A program made the position numbers and the translations under genes. 64,000 nt of DNA. It comes from Gaeumannomyces sp. JS-464. Its lineage: Eukaryota > Ascomycota > Sordariomycetes > Magnaporthales > Magnaporthaceae. The notes beneath the pieces were generated by a model. It saw only the letters and a list, made by a program, of their open reading frames with translations, was not told the DNA's origin and searched no databases. Below, in pieces: positions 1-64,000 of this stretch. The stretch lies in assembly GCA_002197995.1 (NCBI GenBank), contig NGZR01000011.1:1-64000 (forward strand), given 5' to 3'. The stretch's first letter is position 1. Each line of letters begins with the position of its first letter.

Positions 1-311
1 CACCACTTGGGGACTGACGACACACTCCACACTGCACACGTACCGTACCACGCACGTGACGGACACTCTTGGTCACACTGGCCTACACCGGCTGACACCT
101 GGCACACTTTGGACACGACACCGGACACACGACGTACCGCTCTTACGACACTCTACACTCACCGACACACACGTTCTACACGTACTACTACACTTGACTA
201 CACTGACCACTACTACTACTACTTACTGTCTTGGCTACACTTGCGTGCCACGCACGTCGCGGTACACTACCGTACGACGACCTACGTGTTACTTCACTCT
301 TTACTTACGGT

Positions 312-2064
312 GCTTTACTGACTGTGGGACTACTCACTACTACTGTGCCACGTTTTACACACTTACTCACACACCTCCGGGGACCACCCCTACACACACC
401 CACTTCGTACCTACACACCCACACACTACTGACACACTACTTTACGTGGCTGACGCTACACTTCCTTACGGTACACGTACACTACACGCGACACTGGACT
501 GACACGGACACACTGACACTGGGTACACTCGCGGACTCTACACGTCACGTACTTGTTACACACTGGTACACTACGTACCTGTACACACGACGCACACCGA
601 CGTACGACTGGTACGTTGACCACACTTGCTTACACTTGCACACGGGTTTACACGGTGTACCTCTACACTGGGTTTCGACACACGACACACTTACTCACGA
701 CTCACGACACTCCCTTCTACACTACACACTTACGACTACACACACGACTCACGGTTTTACTTCTACCACACCTACGGCACTACTTACTTACACCCACACA
801 CCTACACTTTCACACTCCTTGACTTTTTACACCACGGACTTTACTTGACCGGTGACACGGACTGTTTTACGACACTACGCTTTACACCTACACGACTCAC
901 ACACGACGACACACTACGGTTGACACGACGTACCACACCTTTTTTTCCACACTTACACTCTTCACTGACTACACACGACTACGACGCACTTACTTACGAC
1001 ACGCACTTACACACACACTTTTCTACGGACGTACGGGCACACACTTCACTGTACTCTGGACACACACACTCTTACTTCACACTACTACGACTACCACACT
1101 TTACGACTGACACACTTACCTGTGCTTTTGACACGCACTTTACGACTACACTACTCCGTTACACTTACCTACACACACACACACACGCGGACTTACCTTA
1201 CCTTTTACACGCACGCCTACTGACACTACACTTACACACTTACACACGGACACCACCTTACACTACACACGACTGGTCTTTTACACACACTACGCTTCTC
1301 TTACACGGCTTCTTTACACACTTTACGGTCTACTCACGACACCACTTACACACGGCTGCTTTTCCTACACTACTTACTACCCACGCTACTACACGACACA
1401 CTACCACGACTTACTTCACTTACGTACTTCCACACGTTGTACACCTGACTTACTCACGGACTTTGACCACGCTGACACGGTTGTTTTACTGGTACGGTTT
1501 GTCTACACACTCTACACGACCGTTCACCTGGACTACTCACACACTACTACTTACACGTTTTACTTACTACACTCACACCACCACTACCGTGACTGACGCT
1601 GTTGACTGACACACGTTTGACTACGACTTACCTTACGGTTGTGGTACACACTTACACCACACACACACGGGACTGTACTACTGACACTTCCACACGTTTT
1701 TACACACTTTACTCGACTACTTACCTGACTACACGTCACTACGTTTTTTTTGACACACACTACTCCTACTCTTACGGTGACTACACGGCCACACACGACT
1801 TTTGCCGACTTTTTGTTACTGTACGCACGACTTTACACTGACACACTACACACGTTCACTTTACACCTGACACGACTGGTGCGGCCACACACACACACAC
1901 ACACACACACGGACGGGTACTGACACTACACGGGTACGGCACACTCTACTACGGGCACACACTTGACACTACACGACTTTACTCCTCTTACACTTTTACT
2001 GACTACACACTCTGACACACACACTTTACCACCTCTTTGCCCACGGGTGTACACACTTGCCGTG
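312..2064 (+). mobile_element. Group I intron in rns with LAGLIDADG ORF
   Basis: The decoded exon TCATCTTTATTAGGT stops at 311 and resumes as TTAAAGGGTACCTAGACGG at 2065, as expected of an uninterrupted fungal rns. The 5' exon ends in T and the intron ends in G, the group I rule. Core elements are visible in order: P (CCTCCGGGGACACCCC, about 371), Q (GGGTAATCGCGGATCTAAGT, about 520), R (GCAACGAGTAGATGG, about 590) and S (AAGGTGTACTCTAA, about 650). The endonuclease gene follows the core. The same core type recurs in cox3 intron 2 and nad2 introns 1-4, so this is one mobile intron family. The site is near E. coli position 569 by my recollection of the alignment. Confidence 0.85.
795..2005 (+). 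pseudogene. LAGLIDADG homing endonuclease in the rns intron, frame broken
   Basis: Decoded motif 1 is GFIDGEGCF (about 835-870) and motif 2 is DLTAEGCFMVG (about 1458-1495), the two helices that form the active site of a monomeric double-motif enzyme. Between them FLGVGQIH and FEAF.YPLITKKK are typical. Near the C-terminus EKYPILGDKAKDF and a Lys-rich tail can be read. The protein would cut an intronless rns allele and so spread the intron. The frame is not clean: a TAA lies just after motif 1 (about 885), another lies before YPL, and at least three single-base shifts occur after motif 2. These could be sequencing errors or true decay. The start codon is not resolvable. Confidence 0.75.
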
Positions 2065-2503: not shown

Positions 2504-3855
2504 GTTACTCTACGGTTGCTTTTACACTACTACTTACTTACTTTACACTACTACTTACTACTACACACTACACACACACTACACTACCTACTACCTTACG
2601 TACTTACTTTACTACTTTACTACTTACACACTACTACACTACACTACTACTACCTTACGTACTTTACACACACTACGCTGTGTTTTTTTTTACGTACTAC
2701 GACACACACACACTTACGTTTACCACGCGGACGTCACTCACGTACGTTGGTCTACTACACTGACACACGTGTACACGCACTTTCACCCTCACACGACGTA
2801 CACACTTGGCACACCACACCGGACACCTGACACACTCACCTACGACCCGTTTCTGACCACCCACGTACGTGACACGTACTGTTGTTTACACTTCGACTGA
2901 CTCCACCGACACACACACCTTACCCACCACACTACTGTACACTTTACTACCACGACTGTTGCACCGGCTGTTTTCACGTTACACTGTTGTGACACACTAC
3001 ACTGGTTACACACTCCACTGACACTTACACCGGACACGCCCTTGCTCTACTTTACTACACACTTTACACTTTTACTACGACGCCGACTTCGCCACTACAC
3101 TACGCGGTTACACTGACTACACACGGGACCTACACGACACACGTCACTCACTGGCTTTTACCACTTGTGGGCTACTACGACCGTGCCACCACTTTTCCTA
3201 CACACACCACACGACGACTGCACACACACACTGCGACACTTTACACGCTACACTCTCACACACACTACGGACTACACACACACGACACTACTGGACTTGT
3301 ACGTCTGACACACCTCGGCTACCACTGACACTACACGTACACTTACCTACGTACACTCGTGACACTCACCCACTGTCACCGGTGACACTCCACACCCTCG
3401 GACTTGGTACCTACACCCACCTCGTCACCACTGCTGACACACGGACGTGGGTGCACACTACACTTTTGCTTTTCTACTTGTACTACACTACACGTACACA
3501 CTGTACTACACGACTTTACGACACACTACTACACTACGACACTTCTTCGTACTGCGCTACCTCTACACTTACGTGTTACACGTCGACACACTACCGGTTC
3601 GTGTACGTGGACACGTTGCACCGGGACTTACACTGACTTTTTACACACACACACAACACACACGTACTACACTTTACACTTACTACCACACGACTCTTGT
3701 ACTTTTCACTACCACACGACTCTTTTACACTCTACACACGTGACACGGTTACGACTTACACACTACTTTTACTCACTACTTACACTACACACTACGACTT
3801 ACTACTGACTGACACTCACACTACTTACGACACTGACTACTTCTACACTACTCAC

Positions 3856-3956
3856 GGACACGGTTCCGTTTGTGGGTACTGACCGGGTTGACGCTGTACA
3901 CACCTCACTTACGCTACTCACTACGCTGTCGACACGGTTCGACGTCCTTTTCTTCC
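3856..3956 (+). tRNA. trnY: tRNA-Tyr (GUA)
   Basis: The decoded sequence starts GGAAGG and ends TCTTCC. The seven-base anticodon loop is CTGTAAA, and the T-arm is GAAGG TTCGAGT CCTTT. A long variable arm, as usual for mitochondrial tRNA-Tyr in fungi, lies between the anticodon and T arms. Confidence 0.88.
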
Positions 3957-3961
3957 TACTG

Positions 3962-4045
3962 TCCCTACTACGCTCACACCGGTACGACGCTCGGCACCTG
4001 TTACACTGCTGCGACTACGACTGTTCGACTTCACTCTTACGGGAC
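3962..4045 (+). tRNA. trnN: tRNA-Asn (GUU)
   Basis: Acceptor ends TCCCTA and TAGGGA pair perfectly after decoding. The D-arm contains TAGCTCAACGGTAGAGC, the anticodon loop is CTGTTAA, and the T-loop contains TTCGATT. It lies five bases after trnY. Confidence 0.88.
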
Positions 4046-4237
4046 CTACCTACTACTCACACTGACACTACGACTACACTACACTACTACACACACGTTT
4101 ACTTACTTACTACCGTACGCGTACCGACACGTCGACACGTCTTCTTACTTTCACTACTACACGCACACGCTTGCTTACCTACCGACACGTACGTACCTTC
4201 GTACGTACACGCACACGCGCTTCACCACCACACACAC
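4046..4237 (+). repeat. Intergenic GC mini-repeats between trnN and trnG
   Basis: AT-rich spacer followed by members of the dispersed family: decoded GTACGAAGT, TTCTTATTTCATA and CTTCGTAGTA. No gene seen. Confidence 0.6.
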
Positions 4238-4238
4238 C

Positions 4239-4321
4239 GACTTACTCACTTTACACTGGTACGGACTTACCTGTCTTCCACACACACGCGTACTGTCGGT
4301 TCGACGTCCGACCTACACTCG
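4239..4321 (+). tRNA. trnG: tRNA-Gly (UCC), copy 1, with a damaged anticodon stem
   Basis: Decoded GATTA...TAATC acceptor ends, D-arm TTTAATGGTAGGATTA, anticodon loop CTTCCAA and T-arm GTCGG TTCGAGT CCGAC. Compared with the copy at 15505-15588 it lacks one C just after the anticodon loop (AAAAGCG instead of AAACAGCG), which breaks the anticodon stem. It is either a degenerating duplicate or a one-base sequencing error. Confidence 0.8.
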
Positions 4322-4591
4322 TACTGTGACTTACCTGCTTGCTTGCTTCTGTGTGTACGCACCTACCTGTACCTACACGTCTTCTTACTTTCACTACGTA
4401 CGCTACGCTTCGCTTGCTTACCTTCGTACGCACGACACGTACTGACACACTACACGCACGTACCTTCTTACGACACGTTTACTACACGACACGTACTGGA
4501 CACACGCACCACCTTCTACACTACCGTACCTACCTACACTACCGTACCTACCTACACTACCGTACACTACCGTACCTACCTACACTACCGT
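4322..4591 (+). repeat. Intergenic repeat block with tandem CTAATACGTACTA units
   Basis: TGCTTGCTTGC tract, TTCTTATTTCATAGTAGC element (about 4380) and GCTTCGCTTGCTTAC element, then from about 4513 four tandem decoded units CTAATACGTACTA that run up to trnK. Confidence 0.7.
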
Positions 4592-4681
4592 ACGGGACTT
4601 TTCGTACTACACTGGTACGTACCTTACTGACCTTTTACACTCGTACACTGGACGGGGGTTCGACACTCCCTCACGGTCCTA
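4592..4681 (+). tRNA. trnK: tRNA-Lys (UUU)
   Basis: Decoded anticodon stem TATGA/TCGTA encloses loop CTTTTAA. The T-arm is GAGGG(GG) TTCGAAT CCCTC. The acceptor stem (AGGGATT with AGGTCCT) has mismatches, so the ends are approximate. Confidence 0.75.
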
Positions 4682-4700
4682 CTACTACTACTTTTACTAC

Positions 4701-4785
4701 ACGACGTGTACGTTTACACTGGTACACACTTACGACACGCTTCACACCCTTCCACGTTCTGGGTTCGACTTCCTACGTACCTCTT
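4701..4785 (+). tRNA. trnW: tRNA-Trp (UCA), decodes UGA as Trp
   Basis: Acceptor AGAGTGT pairs with GTACTCT after decoding. Loop CTTCAAC places TCA at positions 34-36, and the T-loop is TTCGATT. A UCA anticodon reads UGG and UGA, in agreement with in-frame TGA at conserved Trp positions of cox3 and nad2. Confidence 0.85.
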
Positions 4786-5213
4786 GCTGCTTTGCTTGCT
4801 TGCTTTACTGTTACTTTACCACTTACCTTACACACACTTTTTACTACGCTTACACCACACGTACGACACTGACTGCTTTGCTACGCTACCTACTGACACA
4901 CTACGCACACTGCTTACTTTCACTACGTACGCTGGCTTCGCTACGCTTCGCTTGCTTACCTCCGTACCCGTACCTTCGTACCTTCGTACCTTCGTACCTT
5001 CGTACCTTCGTACGGACACGCTACTTGACTACACTGACACACACTACACTACTTTTTTCACACTTGCTACCCTGGTACTCGCTACCGTACGTACCTACCG
5101 TACGTACACACTCACGGACGCACTACGCACGCTTACACACACACCCACACTGTTACGGGACACACTACCACTACACCTACACTACACTACTACACTACAC
5201 ACACACACACTTT
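4786..5213 (+). repeat. Intergenic repeats, including a tandem GTACTTC array, before cox3
   Basis: TTGCTGCTTTGCTTGC tract, TTATTTCATAGTAGC element (about 4914), GCTTCGCTAGCTTCGCTTGC palindromic stretch, then five to six tandem decoded GTACTTC units (4968-5012). From about 5041 to 5213 the DNA is AT-rich. No gene or recognisable promoter is seen. Confidence 0.75.
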
Positions 5214-8200
5214 TTGACCTACTTTCACGTACACGACACGTACACTTTCCACACGACTCACTCCTTTTCACTTTACGTTTCTCCTTCTCCTTGACCCTTT
5301 ACTACTTCTACGTACTACTCTTTACTTACGCTTTACACCTTCTACGTGGGGCCTTACTCTACTGCACCACACTTTTACACTACACTGGACTACTTACTTC
5401 ACTTACTACTTTACGCTTTACACTACCTGCTACACTTTCACTCTACTGTCTTTTTGACTTCCGTGACTACTACACTACGCACGACGGGTACCACGCCTAC
5501 TACTTCGACACTCTTTGACTACTTGAACACACCACGCTACACACGCTACTACCCCACACACGACACACACTTACACACTTACACGACCTACGACTTTACT
5601 ACTACACTTCTACCTTGTTCTACCTACACACACACTACTTTACTACACACACTACACTCCTACACTTTACTTTGGACTACTTACTTTACACGTGGTCTTT
5701 TACGACACGGTGACTGGTCACTACTACTACTTCCTTCACTTACGGACACACTACCACACCCTTACACACTACGACACTACCTTACACTCCTACGACACTA
5801 CGTTTTTACCTTCTCACTACTTGACTACACTTTACGGTCTTTTTGCACTTTACTTCACACTCACGACACTTACGGTGGTACTACGGACCGTTTTCACACT
5901 TACTCACGGTACACACACACTACCTCTACCGTTACTACTACACTTGGACGACTACACACGACACGGTACTACCTTCTTTTTACTACACACTTTGACTACC
6001 ACTGGACACACACTTACACGACACCACCCTACACACACTACTACACCCTTTACACTACACACTTACACTTGACACTTTTTTACTGACTACACTACTTTAC
6101 TTACTCTACTACTCTGACACACGTTTACTTGGACTGCGCACACGCGACCGGACTTTCACACTACACTACACTACGTTGACTTACACCTGGTTTTACCCGA
6201 CACGCTGACCGGACCACTTTTGGTACTTACACACTACTACGACACGCACACACGGTACACACTCACGACTACCTCGTACACACACGACTCTGTACACGTG
6301 ACACACACTACTTACGTTTACACGGTTTACGACTTACGACTCACACCGTTTGTTGACTACACACCCTACCACTCTTGTACGTACTGACACACCTTTTACT
6401 GGACGACTTACTCTTTACTACTTTACGACTACCTACACTTTACACACACTGTTACTACACTACGTACACTACACACCCCACGACTCACGACACGTACTTA
6501 CTCTTTACTACCACTACTCTTCTACTACGACTACACGACTACTCACTTTTTACACTTACACTTACTTTTGACTACACTACTCCACTTACTTACGGTGACG
6601 ACACTACTGACTACGTTACTGTACACACTGACGTTTCACGTTTACTACACTACTGACTACACTTTCTACACCACACCACCCTTACCTGACTGACACGGTA
6701 CGACTTACACACACTTACGACGACACTTACACTACGGACACACACCTACGACTTACACGTACACTTCGCTACTGTTGCTACCGTGGTTACTACCACTACA
6801 CACGTGCCCTCGTTACACACTTTACACCTGTACTGCTGGACACACCCCTACTCTTTACTACGGGCTACTCACGCACGGGACACCCACACCACGACCGACA
6901 CTACACACTACTCTTACGTACGGACCCCTCACGACGACCTTTACCGTTGACACGACTCACACTACCGTTTCACTACACACCCTACTTGACTTACACTACT
7001 ACACACGTCCACACTCACACTACTACGTACACTACTACTTGACACACACTTACTGACCTTTTTTACGGTGACCCACCACCTCTGGCTGTACCACACACAC
7101 GGGACTTACACACTTTACGGTGTTACTCTTGTTTTACGTTTCTGACACGCTTTACTTTTTTACTGGCTACTACTTCTGACGCTTTTTTTCACTACGTTTA
7201 CGCACCTGTGACACCACGACACCCACACACCTCCGGGTACACGCCCTACACACGCTCTACACTACACCTACACACTACTTTACGACACACTACTTTACTA
7301 CGTGGCCTCACTTACACTGACTACGACGGGTACTACGTACACACTCACTTACGACGACTTCACTCCTACTGACACGGACTGGACACTGGGTACACTCGCG
7401 GACTCTACACACTCACGACTACGTCCTACTACTCTGTACACACACGACGACACCGACGCACGACCGGTTCTTCACTACTTTTCTACACACTACTTGTACA
7501 CGGTGTGCTCTGACGACGCCACGGGACACACCTTGGTTTTACTACTACTCACACTACACACACACACTTTACACTACCTGTTACTACTCTACCTCCCCGT
7601 ACACTACGTACTTACGGGGTGTGGCTTTGCTTTTGCTACACACACACACACTACTTCTACTACTACCGACACTACTTACACTCACACACACTCTTTTTTT
7701 TCTACCTTCACACGACTTACACTCCTACACTTACTACTTACCACGGACTTTACCTGACTGGACGACACGGGTGTTTTACTACGTACGGACACTTACGTTC
7801 ACGACCCCTACGGTGTACACACACCACGGCTTTACGGGTACACACGCTACCACTTTCACACACTACGGTCTTCACTGACACACACGACTCTCGCTCTGTT
7901 ACGACACCACACACTTACACACTTGTTCTTTGGACGTACGGTACACTACTACACCTACACACTTGGGGGCACGACACACTCTTTTCACACTACTACGACG
8001 TCTCTGGTTTACGACGGACTTTACTACTCTTACTTACTTGACTCACTTTTACACTACTTACCCGCTACTTACACCCTACTACACACCACTTACTACACCT
8101 ACTTTACCTTTTTACACACGACACGTTACTACGCTTTACACTGACACACGACACGGTACACACCACTCTTTCTTTACGACACGGTACTACACACTACGAC

Positions 8201-11200
8201 ACTACGTGTCTACTTACACACGCCGTACTTACACACTACGACGGTACACACACTACTCTGACCACACTTTACACGTTTACGCTTTCCCTGACCTTACGAC
8301 GCCCGTTTTACACGCCCACGACACTTTGCACACACTACGACACACTACTGCACACGACCTTTCACCTGGTTACACGTGGTTTTACCTGACCGCTGACACG
8401 GGTGTTTTTTTACTACGCACTTACACACACACACTCACCCTACACTTCACACACACTTACGGGGACACACCTGTTTGACTTACACGGTTTACTTTTACAC
8501 CTCACACACTACGACGACTACACACGCTCTTTTACGGTACGTTTACACTACCACACTTTACACACACTGTGGTACGGTACTACTTTCTACACACCCACGA
8601 CTTGTGGGGACGTTTGTACGTTGACACACACACTTTTCACGACTACTTCACGGGTACACACTTACTACCCTACTACTTTGACACACACACTTTACACGCT
8701 ACCACTGGACGTTACACACTCCCTACGACCTTTGACGGACTTTTACACGTTGGCGGCTTTACTTACACTACGGACACACACACACGACCCACTTTACACC
8801 TACGACACACGGGTTACGACTGACGTTGACACACTTACTACACACACGGTACGACACTGACACACACACGACGACACACTACGTACTACACACACTTTAC
8901 GACTACTACTACACACACTTACACACTCTACTACTTTGTACGCTACTACCTTACTACTTACACGTACACGTTTACCACACACTACACACGTGACGTGCTT
9001 TACACCACCACACCCACTTGACGTTGGGGTCTCACACTGACCCACCCACACTACGGTACTACGACACCCCACTACACACTCCACTTCGACGCTGCCACAC
9101 TGTTGACACCACCTGTACACTTTTACTTACTCTACGCGGACGCTACCTGTGACCACTACTGCACCACCCACTACGCACTACACTTCACACGGTACACACA
9201 CGACGACACGGACGCCTTACTACTGGTTCACGTTGCTACCACACTACTTACTTACGCTACTACACTCTTTACCACGGCTTTCACACGGACACTACGACGT
9301 ACTACGTGTACTCTTCTTTTACCTACTACACGTGACCGGTGCCTTTGGGACCTTGTTTTTACCTTCGGACACCGGGGTTCCACTGGCTTTGTTTCTACAC
9401 CCCTTTTTTTTTACACTACTACTTACGCGGTTCACGTACGGTTCTACCCTACCCGTTACTTTACACACTACACCTACTACTTACACGTTTACACCACTTA
9501 CTACCACTACACTACGACTTCTACCTACTACGTACCTACACGACTACCACACTCGACACGCTTTCCCCTTACTTGGGTTACCACGGGTTTGCTGACCGCA
9601 CGACACGGACACGTTTTACGTTTTACACACTTACGCTACACACACACACACGTACCCTCGACTACTCTGGCTGACACGTGTACACTACCCACGCACTTTA
9701 CGTACTTGACGTTGCACTACGCACACACGACTACCACCACACTTACACTTACGACGACACACTACCACCTCCTTTTTTGGTGTACGGTACTTGTTACGTG
9801 ACACCGTACACACGACCACGACACACTACTTACTACGTACTACTACGTGTTCACGTCTTACCCGACTACTACACTTACACTGTCACTTACTACCTCACTT
9901 TTGACCACACACTTTCCTTTACACTTTCTCACACACACACACACACGCGGACTTACCCTTTACTTTACACGCGTGGTGTACGACGCTTTTACGCTTTACA
10001 CACACGCTACACACTCTACTTGACGGGTACTTACGGGACGACTTACTACACGTCTTACACACGCTTCACACTGACACTACCCGGTTTACTCCGACACACC
10101 ACTTACACACACCTCACACTTTCCACACCTGTACTTACCGTACCCACCGTCCACTTACGTCTGTTTTCACACGGGACTACCCTGACTCCTACACTTGACA
10201 CTGGCACGGTTTTGTACGACTGGACGACGGGTTGTTTTTACTGTTACACGGTACACGACACACACACTACACTGCTTACTTTACTGTGGGTACTCACGGT
10301 TACTTACTACTCACTTCTCTACTACTCTCACACCACCGCGACGACTGACGGCTTTACTTACGCTACACACTTACACTTGACCTACTCTACGGGTGTGGTA
10401 CACGACTCGACGACACGTGTCACACACACGACCCTTCTACGTGCTACCCTTTGTTGTACTACTACACACTTTACACTGACCGTGTACTGACTACACACAC
10501 TACACTCCCTTTTTTCCACACACACACTTTTCCTTTACCACTGGACGTACACACGTCTACTGGACTTGTACACACGACCTTTACGTACCGACTACGCTGA
10601 CGCTTACTTACACGACACTACACACTCCCACTACTACACCTCTTGACACGGTTTACACACGACGACTACACGACTCTTTACACACACTCTGGTACTGACA
10701 CTACTGGTACGACACCACTACTACACTTACGTTACTTTACTCTCACTGCCCCTGACGCCACACACGGGTACCGCCTACCTTCGTACACCGCACCCCTTTA
10801 CCACGGTGTTCCTGCTTCGCACGACGCGACACGCACCCCTCTGGTTACGGACGCACACGGCTACACTTACACACACACACACACACTACACACACTTACG
10901 TGTACGGTCCTGTTTACACACTTTACTACACTACTACACGCTACTTTTACTTACACTTACACACCACACACTACACACGTTACACTTGCACTGACACGAC
11001 TCTTGACTTTTACCTACACTACACGTACACTCACACGACACACTACTGCACGCCACACTACTTTTACCTACACACTTACTTGCGACACACACACTACTTT
11101 ACGTGTTACACACGGTTCACACCGACCTACACTACACACACTTACTCTTTTGTGCTTTACCTTGACCTGTACTGTTACTACTACGTTACACGACACGACT

Positions 11201-13915: not shown

Positions 13916-14059
13916 TTGTACGTGCCGTCCGACACGCACTACCTTCGCTACTCCCTACCCCTTTGTACGCTTGCTACGACCCTTTCGGACACTACCACTT
14001 ACACTGACACACTTACGTACTCTTGACTACCTACACTTTCACTTACACACTTTACGCAC

Positions 14060-15285
14060 ACCACCACACACGTGCTACACACGCTACCTCCTTACTTTTA
14101 CTTTACTACACTACACACTCACGACTGACTGACGGACACACTACGTGACTTCACACACTACGCGACTGACACGACACTACCTCACTCACTCTTCTGACGT
14201 CACGACACGACACGACTGACACGACTCCACACACTACACACACACACACACCTACTTGACCGACACTTTGACGACACACACACGTGGACCGACTTTACTA
14301 CTGACGCACGACGACTTACCTTTTACACTGACACGCACACTGGACACACGCACACCACACGCTGGACGTTTTGCCTACGACGACTACACTGACACCACAC
14401 CTTCACGGACGTTGCACACACTTTACACGACCCTACACACGCTTTACACACTACACGCTACACGGACTACGTACCACGACACTTTTTGTCTACACTCTGG
14501 ACTGACACGCTTTGGACACGCTGACACACACTCTCACTACTGACACCACACACACTGACACGACGTGACACTGACACACACACACACGACACACGACGAC
14601 ACACGCACGCACACTGGACACGCGACACACGGACACACACAACAACCCACACGTTTACCACTCTACGACACGTACCCTGACTGACTGGACTACTTCACTG
14701 ACTTACACGACACACACGACCGTGCTGCGTCGGACACTCTGACACTCACGCGGACACACACTGACACACTTCCACGTACCACACGTACCACACACACCGT
14801 CCTACACACTTACTCTGACTGACTACTTCACTCCTGGTACCACGCTACCACACCACGTTACACGGACTGGTCCACACGTACCACGACTACACTACTTACT
14901 CTGACGGACACGACTTCACACGTACCACACGTACACTACACCTCACTCTACACGGACTGACTTCACACGTACCACGGTACACACACTCCACCCTACACAC
15001 GACTGACTTCACGGTACACACACACTCACTCACTACACACGGCGGTGGACGACACTCTTCTACACACGGTGACTGGACGGACTCTTCTACACACGGTGAC
15101 TGGACGGACTCTTCTACACACGGTGACTGACACGGACTCTTCTACACACGGTGACTGGACGGACTCTCCTACTACGACTTACTGTACCTTGACACACACA
15201 CACGCGACGTGACTACTGCCTGACTTTTTTTGACTGCACGACTGACGGACGACTTACGTACTACTACGTACCTACTACACGCACG
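14060..15285 (+). CDS. Unknown acidic, low-complexity ORF with SSKGDGG repeats
   Basis: I do not recognise this gene. The decoded translation has a strongly acidic N-terminal part (SDEEYSSSSESEEDEDPNKK, about 14160-14245). A charged helical middle follows: FEKKVDDLYEQRLPFNEAM, LQDSTEFLSNLDEALEAE and a Lys/Glu-rich run. RRAASESESAEK and VQVQKRPKLSDD come next, then GKNHHKGGGESS and three to four tandem SSKGDGG units (15055-15165). It ends DFFDADEEISI-TAG or a nearby stop. The composition is hydrophilic and unlike mitochondrial respiratory genes. The frame needs one or two A-run corrections. It sits between cox3 and trnG/trnD, where conserved genes are not expected. It may come from a mitochondrial plasmid or the nucleus; that is inference. 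Confidence 0.5.
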
Positions 15286-15504
15286 GTTTACTACTGTTAC
15301 ACTTTTACACTTTTACACTTACACTACACACACTACTTTTTGTACGTACGCTTGCTACTTTACGCACACGCACTACTTTACTGTACTGACACTACACACA
15401 CACACGTTTGTTACTTACTACTGTACGCGTACCGACACGTCTTCGTACCGCTGGCTGCTACACGCCACGCACGTCACGCACGCACGACACACTACACACA
15501 CACC
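15286..15504 (+). repeat. Spacer with GC mini-repeats before trnG copy 2
   Basis: AT-rich stretch to about 15410, then decoded GTACGAAGTCTTCGTACGC, a palindromic member of the dispersed family, and GCTGGCTGCTAAGCC. No gene seen. Confidence 0.6.
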
Positions 15505-51100: not shown

Positions 51101-54100
51101 CTTACTGACTACCTACACACCGGTGCTTGACACACACACGCACTTACGTGGCTGACACTTACACTTACCTCACGGTACTACGTACACCACACGTCACTAC
51201 ACGACTGACACGGACACACCTGACACACTACGGTACACTCGCGGACTCTACACGTCACACGTGACTACACTACACACACCACTTACCTTGTACACACACG
51301 ACGCACACCGACGTACACACTGGTACGTACTGTTTGACTTACTTTACACCTACTGTCACACCACTACACGACTGTACCTCTACACACGGGTTTTGACACA
51401 CGACACACTACTCTACACCCGACACGTCCCTTCTACACACCGACACACACACACCCTCTTGTCACACGACTTTTACTACCTACCTACTCACGACCACACG
51501 CTCCCACTTGTACACACTGACACACACTTTACACGTGGTACACTACACTTCTGCTTTGCACTTTGCGACACCTTCGTTACGCGCACACGCTGACACACAC
51601 ACACCGCTTACACTCCTTGACTTTACTCACCACGGGTTTACCACGACCGGGGACGGGGTACCTTTTCTACTTGGTACTTTCTACACACACTACACACACT
51701 ACACACGTACTGTTGACCGACGTACACACACTTACGACACTTTGGTACTACTCTTTACCACTGTACACACGACCACGACGCTCTTTTACGACACGACTAC
51801 TCCGGACACTTACCTTTTCACGCACGGTACGTACTTTTTACTACCACTCCACACCACCACACACACACACTTACACCTACTCGTGTCCTTTTACACACGA
51901 CTCTACGGGACACACACTTACTTACACACACCTTTGACTCACACTACTCCTTTACACTACACCTCACACACACACACACGCTGACCTTTGACGCTTTTTA
52001 CACGTTACGCACTACTACACACTTACGTTTTACACACTACACGACACCACTTTACACACACTTACGACACGGGTTACACACACACACACTTGTACGCACC
52101 TACACACACGCTACCACACTGACACTACACACGGTTTACTCTGACTCACACTTGCGACGCTGCTTTCCACACGACTCTTACTACCTCACTACCCTACGAC
52201 CCTTCACGTCGACACACACTACTGACTTACTACCCACGACTTTACGGTTGACACTACGCACGGGTTTGCACACCACGCACGACACGGTTGTTTTTTTGTA
52301 CACACTACTTCACACACACACTCTGTTACCACACCTACACGTCTGGACGTGACACTACTTCACACTTACGACACTTTACACTACTCTCTCACGCACTACA
52401 CACACGACGACTGACCACACTTACTTACGCACACGTTTACGTTACACACTTTTTACGGTTGCGGTACACTACCTTACTACCTACACACGGTACACCACTT
52501 TGTACGACTTTACGACGTACACCACACACTCTTACCACGACTACTACACCTACCACACACACACTTACTACCCTTTTTTTACACACGTACACTTTTACTC
52601 CACACGGACGACACACACACCTTACACACGACTTTTGTGGACTTTTTGTACACACGTACGCTCACACACTCACTGACACACGACACACACACACACTCAC
52701 CTTACACCTCACGACACACGGGTTACGACTCACACACTTCACTGACACACTACACACACGCTCGACACTGACACCACCGGACACGACACACCTACACACA
52801 CTACACTTTTACCTTTTTTTTTTGACACACACACACACTACACCGACACCTCTACACACTTACACACTACTTTACTTGTGTCTACACTTTACACTACTAC
52901 TCGTTTGTGCGTTTTTACGCACACGACTACACACTTCGGTACGCCTTGGGTTTACACGCTCACTGTTTTACTTTTACTTACGGTACCTACGCTTACTTAC
53001 TACCACCACACACTTCACGGTACCACACCTACACCTTGGACTACGTCTACTACTACTACACTTACCTACGTACTTACGTGACTACTACACACCACACCGA
53101 CTGGACTGCTTTTTACGGACACGCTCCTGACTACTACACCCACTTACTACTACTACACACTTTCTCCTTACCTTGTACTTTACGTACTACGGGTTTTACT
53201 TTACACACGTTACGTGCTGCTCCTTTTCACCTTTTGACTCTCCTACACACACACGGACCTTGGGACACACTCCTTACTTACACCACTACCGTTGGGACGT
53301 ACACACTACTCACACACTTCCGGGGACACGCCCTACACACGCTTCTGGTACCTACACACCCACTACTACTGACACACACTACTACGACGTGGCTGACACT
53401 TACACTTACCTCACGGTACCACGTACACCACACGTCACGACACGACTGACGTGACACACGCGACACACTGGGCACACTCGCGGACTCTACACGTCACGTA
53501 CACTACCACTACCGACTCACACGCACGTCGACGTACTTACTTGTACACACGACGCACACCGACGTACACACCGGTACGTTGACTGTGGTACTGACACTTT
53601 ACCCACCACTTTACACGACTGTACCTCTACACACGGGCTTCGTACACGACACGTTACTCACACGTTACACACACTCCCTTCTACACCCACACTTACTTCA
53701 CACACACCACACTTTCACTTCTACGTGCGTCTACACCCTACGACCACTACACCACACACTTACCCTACTACGACTCCTTGACTTTACTACTCACGGACTT
53801 CTCTGACTGCACGACACGGACTGCTTTCTTGTTCTACACTTCGTACACTCACCCACACACACACACCTACCTACGGTTGACCACACTTACGACGGTTACA
53901 CTTTCACCACACTTACACCCTCACTGTTACGACGACCCTACGACTCTTTTACACACACTTACTTACACACACCCACACTACCACTCCTTCTGCACGACAC
54001 GGACTGTACTTGGTACACACGACACACGACACACTGGTTGTTGTGACTTTCACCACACTACGGTTCTTTACGACTCACACACTACACTACACCACACACA

Positions 54101-57100
54101 CGTACACTACCCTCACTTTTGACTACACACTACTCTACACACACACCTACACTACACTACTTCTGACTTACTTTACTTACTTTACACACACACGTTGTCA
54201 CTGACTGACTGCACACCGTACGGGACACCACTTTACACCACACCTGACACGACTTTACCACACACACACTACGTTACACTACTTACGACGCTTCTTTACA
54301 CACTACGACGGACTTACACCTCCTTTACCTACTTACGACACGCCTTCCCTACACTACCTGCTTTACGCACACACACCCACTTACTTACCCACCCACCTTA
54401 CGTGTCACACACTTACGACCCCTCACACTGGGTACGCTGGTTTTACCACACGTGGTGACTGGTTGTTTTACACACTTACGTACTTACGACGACACTCTAC
54501 ACACTTACCACTACACACACCACGGACACGTCGTGTACTCACTTACCTTTTTGTACGTACACCTCACACCACTACTTACGACGACTGACACTTACCTACT
54601 TGACACACACGTTTACGTACGACTTTCTTCGGGTGTGGTCACACACCTTACTTCTTACTACACACGACTTACTACTTGACGTTTACGACTGTCACACTCA
54701 CTTCACACACGACTACACTTACTGACACACACGACTTTTACCCTTTTTTCACACACACTACCTCTACTTACTTGGCGTTACACACTCTACACGGACTTTT
54801 GACACGACTTGACGCTACACACGTACGCACACACACACACTACCACACACACGTTCACTTTACACCTACACCGACACGGTTTTGACTCACTACTTCGTCT
54901 ACACTAACACACGACGGACACTGACACTACACACGGTACGACTACCCTACGACACTACACACCTACCTTTACGTACCGTACGTACCGGCTACCTACTGAC
55001 ACACTACACGCACGACGGTACTACTGACTTACTACTACACACACTTGTTTTTTCTTTACACTTTGGACCGACTACACACTTTACACCCGTCACTCACTGT
55101 GGACCGTACTACTGACTGCGACTACCCTACCTACTACGTACACCTACCACTTTGTACGCCACTTACTACGCCACACACTACTCTACTTTTGTTTTTTTAC
55201 TTACGACACACTACACTTTACCTACTACCACACGTACACTTCTTTTTTACTACTCCTGCTTTGCTACTCCGGACGGACTACTGGACTACTTCACCACCCA
55301 CCACACTACTCTTACACTTGACACCACTCTGGTTTACTTACACTACACGTTCTTTACCTTTCCTTGACTTACTACGGTACCACGTACGTGGGTTTACACC
55401 TCACACTTTACGACACTACACACACACGACTTACTTTGCCTACCCGGTGACACTGGGCCGTACCTGTGGGCTACACACCTACTCACACACCTCCGGGGAC
55501 ACCTTCTACACTGCCTTTACGGTACCCACACGCTACTACACTCGACACACGACTTACTACACGTGGCTGACCTTACACTTCTTCACGGTACTGGTACACC
55601 ACACGCCACACGGACTACACGTTTACTACACCTACACTACACTACACTACACACACACACACACTGACTACACGTTACTACACCTTTACACTGACACCAC
55701 ACTCGCGGACTCTACACACTCACGTACGTACACTTACCACACACTTACACTACGCTTGCTTCTCTTCGGGCTACCACGGACACACGACACACGCTACCTG
55801 TACACACACGCACACCGACGTACGACCGGTACGTTACTTACCACTGTGTACGCTTTTACCCTTTCGGCCTTCCTTACTACACGACACGCACGCCACGCTA
55901 CACGGGACACGGGCACACTACACACACACTACTCTTTACACTACACTTTTTACTCTTTTCTTACTTACTACTACTACACGTACTACACGGTACTTTTTTT
56001 TTCACTGTACACTTACACGGTGTACTTCTACACTACACTACACTACGACACACGGACACTGCTTACCTTACGTGCTACTGTACGTACTGCACGCACACTA
56101 CACACGACTTTACACACCTACTTTGTACACCTTTTCTCTACTTACTTTACCGACCACACACTTTTTGGTTGTTTCACCGTTTACCACACCCACACACACA
56201 CACACTTTACGTTTACGCTCCACACTACACACTACCACTCTTACCACGACACGACACGACTACTTCACACCTTCTTCACACCGGTTACACGACGTGACTA
56301 CTTCTTACACCACACTACACTACACACACACACGACACTGCACCTACCTACACTACCTACCACGACTTTCTCGTTACCACACCACGGTACACTACACCTT
56401 ACACACTCCTTGACTTTACTTACCACGGTACTCACCTGACCGGTGACACGGTACGTTTCTCTTGTACTCACTTACACACCGTACACTACTGGCTTCTCGT
56501 TTTTCGCTCTTACTCCACCACTCTTACTTCACGTACCTTTGTTCTACGACCCTGTGGGCTTACTACCACGGGGTCTACACGGACTACACCCGTACACGAC
56601 ACACCTACTTCACACCCGTTACACCACCTTCACGGTGGTACCTACTACCACGCCCGTACACACACTACTACACTACACTACTGGGCCTACGACTACACAC
56701 TTCGGCGGACGCCGACTGGACACACACTACACACGGTACACGTCTGGTACTTTACTCGACACTCACCTACACTTGACCACACACTACACTACACGACCTT
56801 ACTACTGGACTCTACGTGTACACACTTTACACGTCACTACGACTTTTCTTGTTACTACTTCCACTTACACGCACTACTACGACACACGACTTACACACAC
56901 ACCTACGTACACCACTTTGTACACGGCTTTACACTTACACGTACTGGGTACCTCTGGGTTTACACACTTACGACGACTTTTACGACACTACCTGCTACTT
57001 ACACGGTACTTACCTTGACGACGACGACACCACGTACCTACTTTACACTACCTTTACACACCCCGGACACACTACTACTACACACGACCGGCTGTACGCT

Positions 57101-60100
57101 TGCGCACCACACTTTTGGTTACTACACACCACTACCTGACACGACACACCCACTACGGCGACACGCCTACACGACACACGCGTACGTCACCACCTGACAC
57201 GACACGTCACACACGCCCACACACTACTCTCTGTGTCACACACTACGGTACGACACACACCACCTCACGACACGACACACCTTACGCCACACACTTACAC
57301 ACACGGTCGTACTCCGTTCACGACACCGGTCTGGGACGGGCTACACACGTTCACACTTGGACACGTGTACTGACCCTACGACTACCTGGGACTACACACA
57401 CACCTACTTTACTCCTACCACACTGACACACGGGGCACGCTCACACGCACTTACGGTACTACTACTACCACGGACACCCACTTACGTACCACTACTTTTT
57501 CACACGGACGCTCCTCGGCACCCTTACTACACACGGACACGGTACTACTTTTTACACACACACGACTTGCACTCACGACTACCGTACGACTACGTACGGA
57601 CTCTTACGACGTTACGTCCCACCCACCCACTGACCCCTTGCTGTACCCTTACGTTACACGCACCTACTGCCGGGACCGGGTTGACACGTCGTACTTCCAC
57701 ACACTTGCTCTTCACTACCACACACGACTCTTACACACCTTTTGGACGCACACACTTACACACGCTTACCTTTGACTGGTGTACGGGACTACACTTACCT
57801 ACACACTCTGACACGCTACACACACGTACTGTGTGCACTTCACGACCACGACGTTACCTTCTCTTACACACCACACACTTACCCACACGGTACACTTTTA
57901 CCCTCACTTTTGCACTTGTACCCCTTTACACACACACCTCACACACACGGTGCCGACTTTCCACACCTTTGACTTACGACTACTCGTTACACTACTTACT
58001 GCTTACACTGCACACACACACGTTTACACCTGACACACTTGACCTTACACACACACTACTTGTTACACTACTACACGACGCTTCACTTGACACTTTACGG
58101 TTTACTCTGACGGTACTTACACACACGCACGCTTTCCCTGACCTACTACTTCCACGTACTCTACGACCCTACGCTTACTCTACTTACCACCACACGACAC
58201 TTACCCACCACTCCTGACACTGACACTGGCCGGGTTTACCTACCCGGACGACACGGACTGTTTCTTTGTACACACGGTTACACCACACACGGTCGTACAC
58301 TACACACTGTGGACGTACGGTGTTCACACTTACGTTTTTCACACCTACGCTCACACACTCTACCGACGACTGACACTTACTTACTTACGACACACGCTTT
58401 GTACACCTTACCTTTACACTTGTGGTCGTCTGGTTCGTGTTGTTGACACACTCACCTGACGGTTACTTTCCACACTGTACCTACACACTTTTCTGACTAC
58501 ACTTACTGACTACTACACTCACTACGACACTTCTTTACACACACACACTCCTACTACCGGGTACGCTGCGCACGACACACACGGTACACACGACTTTCGC
58601 TGACTTGACACTTCGACGTACGCACGACACACTTACTTACACACACTGGTGGACCACTTTACACCACCCACGACGGGTTACTACACGGACACACTTACTG
58701 CACACACTACACACTCTGGACACTGACACCACCTGGACACGACTCTACTCGACTTTTTACACACCTCCACGTTACCTTCTGACCACACTTACGTACACTT
58801 TGGTGCTTGCTGCTTCTACTCCTACACACGGGTACACGCACGTACGCCTTTGGTTACCTACCACCACCACACACTCACACCCACACCACGACCACACTCA
58901 CCTACGCACGACTACACGTCTGCTACACTCACACTTACTTACACGTACGGTCGGTTACTACACGACTCACGTACTACACGCTACGTTGCTTGTTTACTTT
59001 CTACCTACACGGGTCTACTTTCTTCCTTGCTTCGCACGCTTCGCTGCTTACGTTGACGACACGTACGCGACCCCTCCGCTACACGTACGACCTTACGTAC
59101 ACACACGACTTTTTTGTTGTTACTCACTTCTTGCTGTTGTTTTTGCTGTTGTTTACTTGGTTACTACCTACTACCTACGGACACTACTTTGTCGTACACC
59201 ACTTACACGACCACGTACCTACTCTCTCACTGTACGGACTTTACTACTTACTTACGCTTTACACGTACTACTCTACCACACTACGACACTCACACCTCAC
59301 ACGCTTTTGTACTTTTACTTTACACTACCACTACTTCTACTTACGTACACCTTACACACTGCACTTTACTTACTACTTACACTACACCTACTACGGGTTT
59401 TCTTTACTACTTCTTACTTCACACTACACCACACTACACACGACGTACTACACACACTTACACTACGACTACACACACCACACTTCTCCTACTCCACGTT
59501 ACACTTACGTCACACTACACGGGGACTACTTTTTACTACTACACACTCCTTTACTTACGCTTTACACGTTTACACCTACTTACCTACTACTTTTTTTTGC
59601 ACGGTGGACACACACACGACGGACACCGCCTGCACGCACTTTACTACGGTTACGTGTACTACTTTACCACGGTACTACACTTTTTACACACCTTACGACT
59701 ACTTACACGACACTTACCCGGCGCACACGCTCGTTACTTTTGTTACACTGCACACTACGGCGACACGCCGCCTACCTTCTACGCGTACGTTACTGACACG
59801 CACTTACCCTTTACACACTACTACTTTACTACTCTACTTACTGACACACACACTACTACTCACCCACTACTGCTGGACACACCTCCTTACCACACTTACT
59901 GCTACCTGGTTTTACTACTTACTTACACTTCACACGTGACACACTGTACTACACTTTTGGACCACACTCACGCACGGACACACCACACTACACCACACGC
60001 CCCGTTACTGACGTACGGGTCCTCACGACGACCTTTACCGTGACTACCACCCGGTACGCTTTTACACTTACTTACACACACACACACACACACGCTACTT

Positions 60101-62366
60101 GGCTGACACGACTACACACGTCCACTTTCACTCCGACTACACCACTACGGTTTCACTTACTACTTTACTCACACTTTTACTTTACTCCTCTTTTTACACC
60201 TGTACACACCACCGGTTACACACACACGACACCGGTACTACGACTGTTTTACACTCTTCGTGGTACACCACACTTTGTACGTACACTTGTCACCACTTAC
60301 ACACTTACACTACACCACTTACACACACGGTTACTACCTCGACACCACTTACGTGACACTTTACACTACGCACTCCGTACTTCCACGTCACACACACCCC
60401 TGTACCTACGCTACCTACTACACACACTTACGACACGTACGACTTCTACTTCTACCTACACTACACACTCTACGTTCACGGTTCGGTTGACTTACTACCT
60501 TCACGGTACACGGACTTCACTCTCCCCTTACACACCCTTGACTTTACTTACCACGGACTTTACCGGACTGCACGACACGGGTGTTTTACTGGTCACACAC
60601 CTTACGACACACACACCCCACACGACTTCACACTACCACGGACTGACTCACGTCCACACCCACGGGTTTCACACACTACACACGCTCCACTACACACACA
60701 CGACTACACGGACGCTACTTACACACCTTACTTACTGTTTTACTTTTGGACTCACGTACGGTACCACACTTACGTGTTGCACGGTGCACGACTTGCCTTA
60801 CGTTTTTCCGTTACACTTCGTTACGACACCCTACTTTTACGCTTGTACTACACTTCCTCACTTTTGACCACACACTACTCCTTTACACTACACCCACACA
60901 CACACTGGGCCGACCTACCTACCTTACTTTACGACGACGGTACGTTACTGACTGACTGCACACCGACACACGGACGCACTTTACACCGGACTACCTGGTC
61001 TTCACACGCTACTTACTACACACTACTACCGTGCTTCTTTACACACTACGACGGACTTACACCTGACTGGACCTTACACACGACACGCTTTCCCACGACA
61101 CACCTGTTGCCGTGTCTACGACCCTGTCGTACACACCCCACGTTACTTACACCGACCCCTGACGTGACGTTGCTGGACTTTACCGACGCGGTGACGGGTT
61201 GTTTTTACTACTTACACTACTACACTACACACTCTGCCACCCTACTACACGTCACGGACTTTCACACGTACCTACCTACACGACTTTCACTTTACGTTCA
61301 CACCACTTCTCGTGACTGACGCTACTTGACTGACACACACGTTTACGTACGACTTTTTTTACACACTGTGGTACACACTACTTCTTTACCCCCACACGGA
61401 CACCACGACCCGTGCGGACTTTTGTACTGCGACGACACTTTCACCTGACTACACCTACTGCTACACACACTCACTACCCACTTCTTTACACACCTTCACT
61501 CACACACTCACACACGGACGTCACACACTTACACACGACTTTCACACTGACCTGACTGTCACACGTACGCCGACACCTACACTTACGACACACTACACAC
61601 GCTCACCCTTACACTACACACACACGGACTTACGCTGACGACTTACCTTGTACTTACACACGCACGGTACTGACACCACGGGGCACGACCTACACTTACG
61701 GTACGGTCTACCTTACACGGTACACACACTGGTGTGACTGACCTTACACACACTACACGTACACACTTACTTTCACTTTACTGTTTGGCTTTACACCTAC
61801 ACGTTACACACACACACACACACACGCTACACGTACACGCTACACACCACACGCTACACTGACACACTACACCTTACTTACTACACTGTACACACTGACT
61901 TCCTCCCCTGGTACGGTTTTTTTGCTACACACCACACACTGGTACTTACACGTGCTGCTACTACGACTACACACGGTTACTACTTTTTCTACTCTTTACA
62001 CTCGCTACTTCTTACCACACGTGTACACTTGGGGCACGTTTACCTACTCTACACACTGTACACTACACGACACACTTTACTTTTTACTTCTTCTGACTTA
62101 CTACACACACTACACACTCCTTTACTTTACACACACTTCTACACACTTACACACCGGGGACTACTTACTTGACTACGACACACTACACTACACTACTACA
62201 CTTACACACTCTACTTACCACTTTACACTTACTACACACTACTACACCTACTGTCTACGTTCTGTCTCTACTTACCTACTCTCACACTACACTTACCACT
62301 TACGTACGTTTTACTTACTTCACTTTTACTGACACTACACACGACACTGACTTACACGTACTGGGT
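48134..62366 (+). CDS. nad2: NADH dehydrogenase subunit 2, at least six exons
   Basis: Proton-pumping subunit of complex I. Exons: 48134-48637, 50797-51017, 52949-53244, 55102-55441, 59210-59605, 61898 to about 62366. Decoded exon 1 has MLLTSILLILISNSVTSE, QLTSFYPRKVWSPEYASL and NIIEYP. Exon 2 has VITGAIFLMSTNDLISIFL and IELQSYGLYLLS. Exon 3 has GLSSCFIF, SLLYTNSGTT and FKVSAAPFHFWSP. Exon 4 has DVYDAIPTIVTTFVAIIAK, LLISSLLSLIIGTVVGLTQ and KKLFA. Exon 5 has YSTISHVGFILLALSI, INPLLALSLT and FAG. Exon 6 has IPPLVGFFAKQMVLSAA, AILTSVIGAVYYL and MNKEWLSMGT. After MGT either a short tail ends at TAA 62403 or a sixth intron begins. TGA codes Trp (HFWSP). Confidence 0.92.
48638..50796 (+). mobile_element. 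Group I intron, nad2 intron 1
   Basis: Between EYP (ATCCT) and CTAATTTTATTATT. P CTCCGGGGAACTCCTAAAGC is at about 48686, with Q at about 48957 (CATCGCGGATCTAAGT-type), R at about 49040 and S (AAGGTGTACTCTT) at about 49093. A GC mini-repeat cluster with four GCTACCGCGCTAC-like units (50640-50730) lies near the 3' end. Confidence 0.83.
49300..50530 (+). CDS. LAGLIDADG endonuclease, nad2 intron 1
   Basis: Motif 1 NPWFVTGFTDGDGSFAVSI (about 49328-49395) and motif 2 WVAGFITAEGSFYL (about 49986-50040). Between and after them are HFDYTLPF-type and IKTIKDAMYKR segments typical of the family. The ORF follows the intron core directly. Small frame shifts are likely but were not mapped one by one. Confidence 0.75.
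51018..52948 (+). mobile_element. Group I intron, nad2 intron 2
   Basis: Inserted in FLLGG after TTATTGGGT; exon 3 resumes GGTTTAAGCTCATG. P ACCTCCGGGGACGCCTTAAAGC is at about 51075, with Q at about 51232 (ATCGCGGATCTAAGTCAA) and S ATGTACTCTAAAAGGG at about 51372. The core is nearly identical to that of introns 1, 3 and 4. Confidence 0.83.
51600..52800 (+). CDS. LAGLIDADG endonuclease, nad2 intron 2
   Basis: Motif 1 TGFTDGDGVPF (about 51628-51668) is unusual in having Val-Pro before Phe, perhaps from a local indel. Motif 2 is AGFATAEGCFF (about 52258-52300). The end reads KKNHLTQKGLDQIHEIKARMN. Order and spacing match the sister genes. Confidence 0.75.
53245..55101 (+). mobile_element. Group I intron, nad2 intron 3
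   Basis: Between HFWSP (TCTCCT) and GACGTATATGATGCG. P ACTTCCGGGGAAGCCCTAAA is at about 53310, Q GGGCAATCGCGGATCTAAGT at about 53470, R GAGCACGAGTAAACGG at about 53562 and S GTACTCTAAAGGGC at about 53624. Confidence 0.83.
53770..54950 (+). CDS. LAGLIDADG endonuclease, nad2 intron 3
   Basis: Motif 1 GFSDAEGCFL (about 53795-53830), motif 2 AGFTSGDGCF (about 54433-54470), and the tail TKVHLTNEGFDHIRLIKEE. An A not followed by C (about 54906) sits in this tail. Confidence 0.75.
56400..56570 (+). pseudogene. N-terminal part of a LAGLIDADG endonuclease, nad2 intron 4
   Basis: Decoded FITGITDGEGSFSCIIK (about 56414-56480) is motif 1. The homology stops shortly after it, at a GC-richer stretch (CCCTGTGGGCTTATACAGG, about 56550) that starts the inserted GIY-YIG segment. 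The matching remainder appears at 57650-58745. Confidence 0.65.
56670..57560 (+). CDS. GIY-YIG homing endonuclease nested in nad2 intron 4
   Basis: Decoded VYRSLIDKNNKTLYGSS (about 56740-56820) is the GIY-YIG signature. VNLSHRFSVIFH, HIERLKTSNICKALIKYG, GFKLEILEYC, REQYYFNTLNPE and FGYKHTEETIAKMRKA follow. The linker repeats SHTEEVKAKIS and KHSEETLAKI, and a NUMOD-like GAAQALGIYTGT forms the tail. Catalytic Arg (HRF) and Glu (REQYY) are present. Few indels are needed. It sits between two parts of a LAGLIDADG gene. Confidence 0.8.
57650..58745 (+). CDS. LAGLIDADG endonuclease body and second motif, nad2 intron 4
   Basis: It starts TGLKSYSKIALHTKDLKLLE, the segment that normally follows motif 1, then YFDGVGIITK, HFALYPLKTQKGADF, IRASLNLGLSEVLKAAFP and VSRPL. 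Motif 2, WMAGFTTGEGCFFVKV, is at about 58215-58270, followed by LVFQLAQNLRDELLLESFV. It ends EKVKDFADWIRVA, GGHLTPEGLKEIM and KSGMNTGR. It has no motif 1 of its own. Confidence 0.75.
59606..61897 (+). mobile_element. Group I intron (IB-like), nad2 intron 5
   Basis: Between FAG (GCAGGT) and ATTCCTCCCCTGGTAGG. The core resembles cox3 intron 1: P TGCTGGAAACCTCC (about 59871), Q ACAATCAGCAGGAAACAA (about 59961), R CCTCAGAGACTTTACG (about 60021) and S GAAGATAAAGTCC (about 60103). Confidence 0.82.
60480..61700 (+). CDS. LAGLIDADG endonuclease, nad2 intron 5
   Basis: Motif 1 FITGFTDAEGCFMVKTLRK (about 60543-60610), motif 2 WVAGFTSGEGCFF (about 61170-61215), then LLMKSLVDFFKCGKYFPKG, IIPFFKLH, VAELIRNKAHLNKEGLAEI and IKAGMN at the end. 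It lies 3' of the core, unlike the ORF of the core-related cox3 intron 1. Confidence 0.8.
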
Positions 62367-64000
62367 ACCCACTACTGACCCCCTACTTCTTACCTACTGT
62401 GCTACACTGACGTACTTACTACCTCGTACACTTTACTTACCTGCTACTCACACACTACCACACTACCACACTTTCACTCCGACTACCTTACTCTACACTT
62501 ACACGTACTCCTTCTCTTACACTCGTACCTACGACCACCACCGTCTACTACCACTACCACTCTCACCTTACTCTTCTACTTTTGTGCGTACGCTACCTCA
62601 CACACACGACTACCTCACACTGTACCTCTACGTCACTACACTTACCCACTACCTACACGCTACTACTCACCCTTTACTTTACTACTCTGGTTACTTCACG
62701 ACTGCACGACACGGTTGTTTCACACCGTACGGTTTTCACACACGGACACTCCTACACTGGGACACACTTCTACTGTCCGTCCTTTACTTTCACACACTAC
62801 CACACGTTCACCTCTACACACGACTACACTTTACTTACTTACACTGCACACACTTACGACACACTTACTTTACGGTACGTACTTGGACACACCACTTCAC
62901 TACGTACACGGGGACACTACACACTCACACTACTTCGCGGTACACGACTCTTTACGACTGACTACTTTTACACACACACTCACTTTCACCACTTTTGACT
63001 ACACTTACCCCTTTACACTACACCTCACACACACGACACACGCACGACTTTTTACCTACTTTACACGCACACACTACGTCTACTACACACTTACGTTGAC
63101 ACGGGGACACCACTTTACTCACGCCACACACGGGTTACCACACGACACACTTGTACACACTACTTCGTGCTTCGACTACACACTTTACGGTTTACTCGCA
63201 CTTCCTTGACACGACCTACTTTTTCCTACACTACCTGTGCCTGTTTCTACGGCCCCTTACTACGACACACACTACTTACCTACTCCCTGACTTCTGACGT
63301 GGACTGGCGGGACTTTGTTTCACGGTGACGGGTTGTTTTTTACGTTACACTTTGGCTACACACTACTGGTGGACGTTACACACTTACGACTGGACGTTTC
63401 ACTTACACGTTTTACACGGTACTCTCACACCACTTTACACGACGACTGACACTTACTTACCTACACGACTCACTTTACTTACCTTTTTTTGGACTGTGGT
63501 ACTACTTCACACTTACTCACCTCTGGACACGTACGCACACGTTGGGTGCTGGACGTACTTTACTTGTTACGACACACCTTTTCGGACCACTACTGACGAC
63601 TACACACACTACACTTCCACTTTTTTACACACACCCACTGACGACTACACGACGGTGTTACACACACGACGACGGACTTTTGACACGACTTGACACTTCT
63701 ACGTACGCTGACACTTTACTACACTCTACACGGCTCACTCTACACCCACACACGACGGGACTTACGACTACACGACTTCGTGACACACTACACACACTCA
63801 CGTCGCTTGCGCACACTGACACTACACACTTACACGACTACACTTTTTACTACGCACTACCACTCTGCTGTGACACGCCACGCCACGCGTACTACTTTTG
63901 TACTTTACTACGTACTTTACGCCGACGACGCACACTACGGTTGCCCACACTTACACTTTGGTTACACTACACTACACCACACTTTTACACACACACGACT
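62367..64000 (+). mobile_element. Possible sixth nad2 group I intron, 3' end outside the window
   Basis: Nad2 reads MNKEWLSMGT and then diverges at ACCCATATG. The 5' exon ends in T, as group I introns require, and a LAGLIDADG gene follows. The alternative is that nad2 ends at TAA (62403-62407) overlapping an ATG (62406) as in the common nad2/nad3 TAATG overlap, but the downstream text does not resemble NAD3. Confidence 0.5.
62600..63830 (+). CDS. LAGLIDADG endonuclease near the right edge, probably in nad2 intron 6
   Basis: Motif 1 FISGYSDAEGCFKR (about 62680-62735), LFQIQVHSKD, ISHFDNYPLITQKKADF, EGEHLSHAKGLQEIVNIRAS and LGLSHSLKTIFPNTVP. Motif 2 is WMAGFVSGEGCFLVNL (about 63302-63355), then SQHLRDELLLRSFI, FFGCGIF, DFEDWILVAEF and KAHLTKEGLDKIR. 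The tail IKSVACAMN carries a TCGCTTGCGCA palindrome also seen at 21268. An open frame continues upstream to about 62410. No intron core is visible before it, so the core may lie beyond 64000. Confidence 0.72.

Follow-up and report, generated by a model that had tools for sequence, protein, structure and literature searches.

A mitochondrial genome written with a C after almost every A, a probable base-calling artefact of long reads

What kind of DNA, or what kind of record, carries a C after almost every A? The window analysed here, a stretch of 64,000 bases, raises this question directly. A dinucleotide count over its whole length found C as the next base for 16,771 of 16,779 A, the eight exceptions comprising seven AA, one AT and no AG, and none of the bases other than A was tied to a single next base. 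A reading made from the sequence alone had reported this rule with only a handful of exceptions, and had anticipated that AA, AG and AT would total about ten; both statements hold. The window forms the first part of a longer contig (C3), which is still AC-spelled beyond it, with 0.968–1.0 of A per 2 kb followed by C as far as the contig was read (to 84,000 of 87,801 bases); across all stretches tallied there are 114 exceptions to the rule among 56,460 A. As written, the window yielded no tRNAs with ARAGORN and no Rfam matches at gathering score, and its four longest open reading frames (stop to stop, table 11) had no Pfam match.

Replacement of each AC by A converts the window into 47,229 bases with a G+C content of 31% and ordinary dinucleotide frequencies, in which ARAGORN (code 4) finds 21 tRNAs. 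When 28 rules that delete one letter of a two-letter pair were compared, tRNAs came from AC to A alone, the other 27 giving none. Random removal of 16,771 C gave no tRNA in 18 of 20 trials and one tRNA in the remaining two, whilst deletion of all C after A gave 11 tRNAs and collapse of (AC)n gave four. Since only AC to A yields the tRNAs in full, exactly one C has been added per A, A runs included. The sequence-only reading had proposed this very decoding, which proved the best of all the rules tested, and it had also foreseen the folded tRNAs that appear where the undecoded window has none.

Once decoded, the window is an ordinary mitochondrial genome with introns (Table 1). Eleven decoded open reading frames, picked by eye, were used as Pfam queries; nine have a domain above the cut-off (COX3, Proton_antipo_M, LAGLIDADG_1 or RVT_1), one has a weak nad6 match (E 0.017, below the cut-off) and one has no match. 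The mitochondrial identity given by the earlier reading is borne out by the tRNAs together with these domains, and its cox3 by two PF00510 matches. For nad2 the result is mixed: a Proton_antipo_M match supports the assignment, but the domain search gave that family only, and the name nad2, given by the earlier reading and adopted here, came from no search. Similarly, nad6 has its weak match in favour, though one that lies below the cut-off. The decoded window resembles intron-rich fungal mitochondrial genomes in its 21 tRNAs, its tRNA-Trp(tca), cox3, LAGLIDADG reading frames and reverse-transcriptase piece, and shows no difference from them as far as examined. The mitochondrial genome is most likely fungal; the clues to the host elsewhere in the assembly are a eukaryotic rDNA that contains a group I intron, and contigs that begin with CCCTAA repeats.

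Table 1. Features of the window, with positions in the sequence as written (decoded: found after replacement of AC by A)
Feature	Position	Strand	Evidence or remark
AC-spelled mitochondrial DNA, 16,771/16,779 A written AC	1..64000	+	Start of contig C3, which has 87,801 bases
Eight A without a following C (7 AA, 1 AT): 3655, 5526, 14641, 14644, 40521, 41889, 42967, 54906	3655..54906 (span)	+	Dinucleotide count
tRNA-Tyr(gta), one of 21	3854..3958	+	ARAGORN, decoded
cox3 piece	6863..7134	+	PF00510, E 2.3e-05, decoded
Sole window stretch matching normal spelling among the stretches compared	6928..7648	+	C9:10135-10689, 96.2% decoded
LAGLIDADG_1 ORF	9875..10437	+	E 6.4e-10, decoded
cox3 C-terminal piece	13721..13965	+	PF00510, E 6e-15, decoded
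tRNA-Val(tac)	21650..21742	+	ARAGORN, decoded
Reverse-transcriptase piece	25669..26149	+	RVT_1, E 1.6e-11, decoded
tRNA-Glu(ttc), opens 11-tRNA cluster (cluster end 48124)	45034..45120	+	ARAGORN, decoded
tRNA-Met(cat), closes 11-tRNA cluster	48026..48124	+	ARAGORN, decoded
LAGLIDADG_1 ORF	49538..50090	+	E 3.8e-10, decoded
nad2-like stretch	50700..51363	+	PF00361 Proton_antipo_M, E 9.8e-06, decoded
First arm of giant C3 fold-back	57428..64000	+	AC-spelled reverse complement past the window; hinge ~C3:70,982-71,046 (by eye)
LAGLIDADG_1 ORF	63005..63644	+	E 1.3e-14, decoded

The source assembly comprises 34 contigs (53.0 Mb), of each of which the first 2 or 10 kb were read, with more of C3 and C9. 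The AC rule is present in 21 of the 34, in 20 of them throughout the stretch read and in one (C9) with a change-over; 11 contigs, including all nine of at least 1 Mb, have normal spelling in their first 2 or 10 kb, and C2 and C10 are normally spelled in the parts read. Of the 21 AC contigs, 11 follow the rule on the + strand and ten on the − strand. These counts bear on the suggestion of the sequence-only reading that a text substitution upstream of the record was the simplest cause. A substitution made in the deposited record would explain why decoding is exact, but a find-and-replace would alter the + strand of all contigs, and it is contradicted by the ten contigs that follow the rule on the deposited − strand, by the 11 that are normal where read and by C9, whose first 10 kb are normally spelled and which takes up the rule gradually. 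Such a substitution survives only via contig-wise corruption, reverse-complementing of some contigs and a part-mended C9, and we regard it as highly improbable.

The strand distribution can be followed down to single loci. Each contig was decoded in its own AC direction and then aligned to the others, which assigned a template to 12 of the 21 AC contigs, ten matching decoded C3 (C3 included) and two matching rDNA; nine (C5, C6, C8, C11, C22 and C25–C28) have no assigned template, so that the copy-number argument made below rests on the 12. Decoded contigs match the window mostly at ~94–98% identity and in both orientations: C13, C18 and C4 match it in reverse, C9 and C14 in the forward direction (C14 over 1.9 kb), and the fold-back contigs C7, C15 and C20 in both directions. 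AC copies of the opposite direction cover 30,903 of the 47,229 decoded bases, and copies of the same direction 29,491, with 16,014 bases covered by both. An opposite-strand AC copy predicted for decoded positions 16401–16664, a locus up to then without such a copy, was found at C7:30209–30561 (−), with 98% identity over 360 of 360 bases. The same segment in normal spelling gave no match in the assembly, an empty result that is weak when taken alone; as a control on the search, a normally spelled C9 query recovered itself. No normally spelled mitochondrial contig came to light in the stretches covered; such contigs may have been identified and taken out ahead of deposition, whereas the AC-spelled ones could not be recognised.

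AC-spelled DNA also gives many partial matches, at ~70–80% identity, to unrelated AC-spelled DNA, and matches of AC-spelled queries were treated as informative only if near full length and above 90% identity. Minor matches in the spelling searches were taken as repeats or AC-rich background, and candidate AC copies of the first tract of C9, represented by partial matches at ~68–83% only, were rejected as AC-rich self-background.

The same locus is thus AC-spelled on either strand, from which it follows that the rule tracks the direction of reading, as one double helix cannot hold both spellings; the AC rule belongs to the reading and not to the molecule. A molecule that truly carried a C after each A, whether a strange organelle genome or the product of hypermutation, would have in its favour only its presence in the assembly. 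Besides the two-strand spelling, which is impossible for one double helix, it is opposed by fold-backs in which both arms obey the rule (see below), and by an undecoded window with no tRNA, no RNA family and no Pfam domain in the four reading frames tested; we give it a negligible probability, and the earlier view that the pattern is not biology is upheld by the two strands and the two arms. Organellar insertional RNA editing, for example the C insertion of Physarum, likewise produces an extra C relative to the expected sequence, whereas the C seen here belongs to reads of DNA and follows each A, on either strand read and in the hinges of fold-backs too.

The nature of the molecule that was read can be judged from the rDNA. 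C16 and C19 carry a single rDNA region, each on a different strand, and Rfam identifies the region as eukaryotic rRNA; once decoded, the two contigs are 98.6% and 98.3% identical, respectively, to a normally spelled 5 kb of C10. Deletions make up 65 of the 67 base differences in C16 and 72 of the 83 in C19, and those listed are mainly shortened runs, in which (AC)n loses whole AC units; the molecule read therefore held plain A runs. With normal C10 as the reference, shortening is commoner in A runs than in T runs (46 of 479 versus 17 of 477); the mitochondrial counterparts (537 of 5,204 versus 155 of 5,092) are biased, the reference being itself an AC contig. The excess shortening of A runs fits a fault at A, and also fits a repeat consensus. 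An excess loss of genuine C behind A, which seemed strong at first and was considered as a base-calling signature, was discarded when it disappeared at isolated A (1/144 versus 2/254; 19/1,332 versus 6/645).

Decoding further reveals that, among the 16 AC contigs of which at least 10 kb were read, six are fold-backs (C3, C6, C7, C11, C15 and C20), with C9 scanned piecewise; the scan covered AC contigs only, and the proportion is not a measure of excess over normal contigs. In all six, both arms are AC-spelled in the same contig direction. The hinges between the arms are 31 to 46 bases long in the four fold-backs with automatically set ends; for C3 and C15, in which the automatic ends were off (383 and 0 nt), limits were set by eye in the hinge tally, according to which C follows 114 of 114 A across the six hinges.

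The hinges were compared with the PacBio SMRTbell adapter. Single-hinge scores are too weak alone (depending on the hinge, between 0 and 58 of 500 shuffles do as well, the 58 being for C7), and the hinges were therefore tested jointly. Their summed score is 175, compared with 143 for the best of 2,000 random-window draws, whilst 41 of 2,000 shuffled adapters reach 175. The match is better in the read orientation than in the other for six of six hinges, and three of 2,898 other windows score at least as high as the best hinge; re-centring the C3 hinge window by eye left its adapter score unchanged (22 versus 11). We liken the fold-back contigs to PacBio missed-adapter palindromic subreads, which are likewise self-reverse-complementary with a short adapter-like hinge in read orientation. 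In contrast to such subreads, the arms as written here are not palindromic, since the spurious C of each arm follow the direction in which that arm was read. An adapter in AC spelling would escape detection, so that, if the hinges are adapters, the fault precedes adapter removal. An earlier paper (PMC6218980) deals with palindromes in long reads, which in that case reportedly arise by amplification.

In C9, the change-over from one spelling to the other lies within a single contig. Bases 1 to ~10,135 are normally spelled and plasmid-like, and are followed by normal cox3 sequence; over 10.6–12.5 kb the proportion of A that carry an extra C climbs from almost 0 to ~0.9, the normal side coming first in the reading direction, and from 13 to 40 kb C follows at least 0.99 of the A in each kb. 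Within the ramp neighbouring A behave independently (114 switches versus a null mean of 100.6), the extra-C share ranges from 0.53 to 0.69 by next base and from 0.53 to 0.63 by previous base, and C is gained after C, G or T at 9 of 2,075 bases. As the onset is gradual and proceeds A by A, an all-or-none edit cannot produce it in one read, whereas a gradual onset can; alternatively, the ramp may stem from a consensus in which normal and AC reads were mixed.

The plasmid-like tract (C9:1–10135) contains a reading frame of 1,252 aa for a type B DNA polymerase (PF03175, DNA_pol_B_2, E 1.6e-94) and, on the other strand, a 1,079-aa frame that by eye resembles a phage-type RNA polymerase; the two share a peptide at their starts, as if these lay within terminal inverted repeats. 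The tract resembles a linear mitochondrial plasmid. Its junction with mitochondrial cox3 at ~10,135, close to a lone N, reflects either integration or misassembly.

The AC spelling is almost certainly a read-level artefact that arose before assembly, as the decoding, the dependence on reading direction and the fold-backs indicate. As to its overall nature, mitochondrial DNA has probably been misread through a long-read base-calling artefact that writes one spurious C per A in the direction of reading. In the mechanism that we propose, the sequencer would follow every A call with a false C in some of the single-molecule long reads; these AC reads would fail to overlap with normal or opposite-strand reads and would form assemblies of their own, one per strand; and mainly high-copy templates, such as mitochondrial DNA and rDNA, would be deep enough to give AC contigs.

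The fold-backs, which suggest missed adapters, the adapter-like hinges, and the gradual and independent onset in C9 lead us to infer PacBio base calling: PacBio is the likely instrument, and base calling, not a damaged read file, a reasonably probable stage. On a PacBio-type instrument a single colour channel may serve both A and C, with the tail of an A pulse being called as C. Against base calling, the tally of 114 exceptions in 56,460 A is very regular for a physical process, and consensus would have to supply that regularity. A script that replaced A by AC in one read file prior to assembly, with contigs then forming one set per strand, would account for the extreme regularity of the window (16,771 of 16,779) and for both orientations, and is in keeping with the loss of whole AC units from (AC)n, in which the errors seem to predate the substitution. 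Such a script, however, leaves unexplained the fold-backs with their adapter-like, rule-obeying hinges, as well as the A-by-A onset in C9 unless that is a mixed consensus; the greater shortening of A than of T runs in the rDNA also speaks against it, although a repeat consensus could be the cause. We consider such a script unlikely, though it is the chief rival to base calling.

For the base-calling artefact, we lean slightly towards a failure mode in which, partway through a read, the chance of an extra C after A climbs smoothly to 1, giving decodable, per-strand organelle contigs that are missed by mitochondrial screening. The titles and abstract openings of the literature searched contain no description of an A-to-AC read artefact.

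The AC spelling is of low biological interest. Nonetheless, 21 small contigs of a publicly available assembly cannot be read in their present form, in whole or in part, and the record needs correction; gene prediction, repeat tallies and analyses of composition would be misled by AC contigs. The signature, kilobases in which every A precedes a C or every T follows a G, is easily screened for, and its recurrence elsewhere would reveal whether an instrument fault lurks in other long-read assemblies. Two AC-spelled 16S patterns gave no matches in a prokaryote contig collection, which is weak evidence on recurrence.

Some further observations concern other contigs. A group I intron lies in the nuclear small-subunit rRNA gene of C10, at 1535–1822 of the stretch examined (Rfam). 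Normally spelled COX1 fragments, with one stop each, occur at C31:2170651–2170854 (a 3.0 Mb contig) and C33:374184–374543 (a 1.4 Mb contig), and are probably nuclear copies of mitochondrial DNA. Lastly, the first 60 bases of C24 (14 kb) and C32 (2.7 Mb) are almost identical, the shared start being a probable duplicate contig end.
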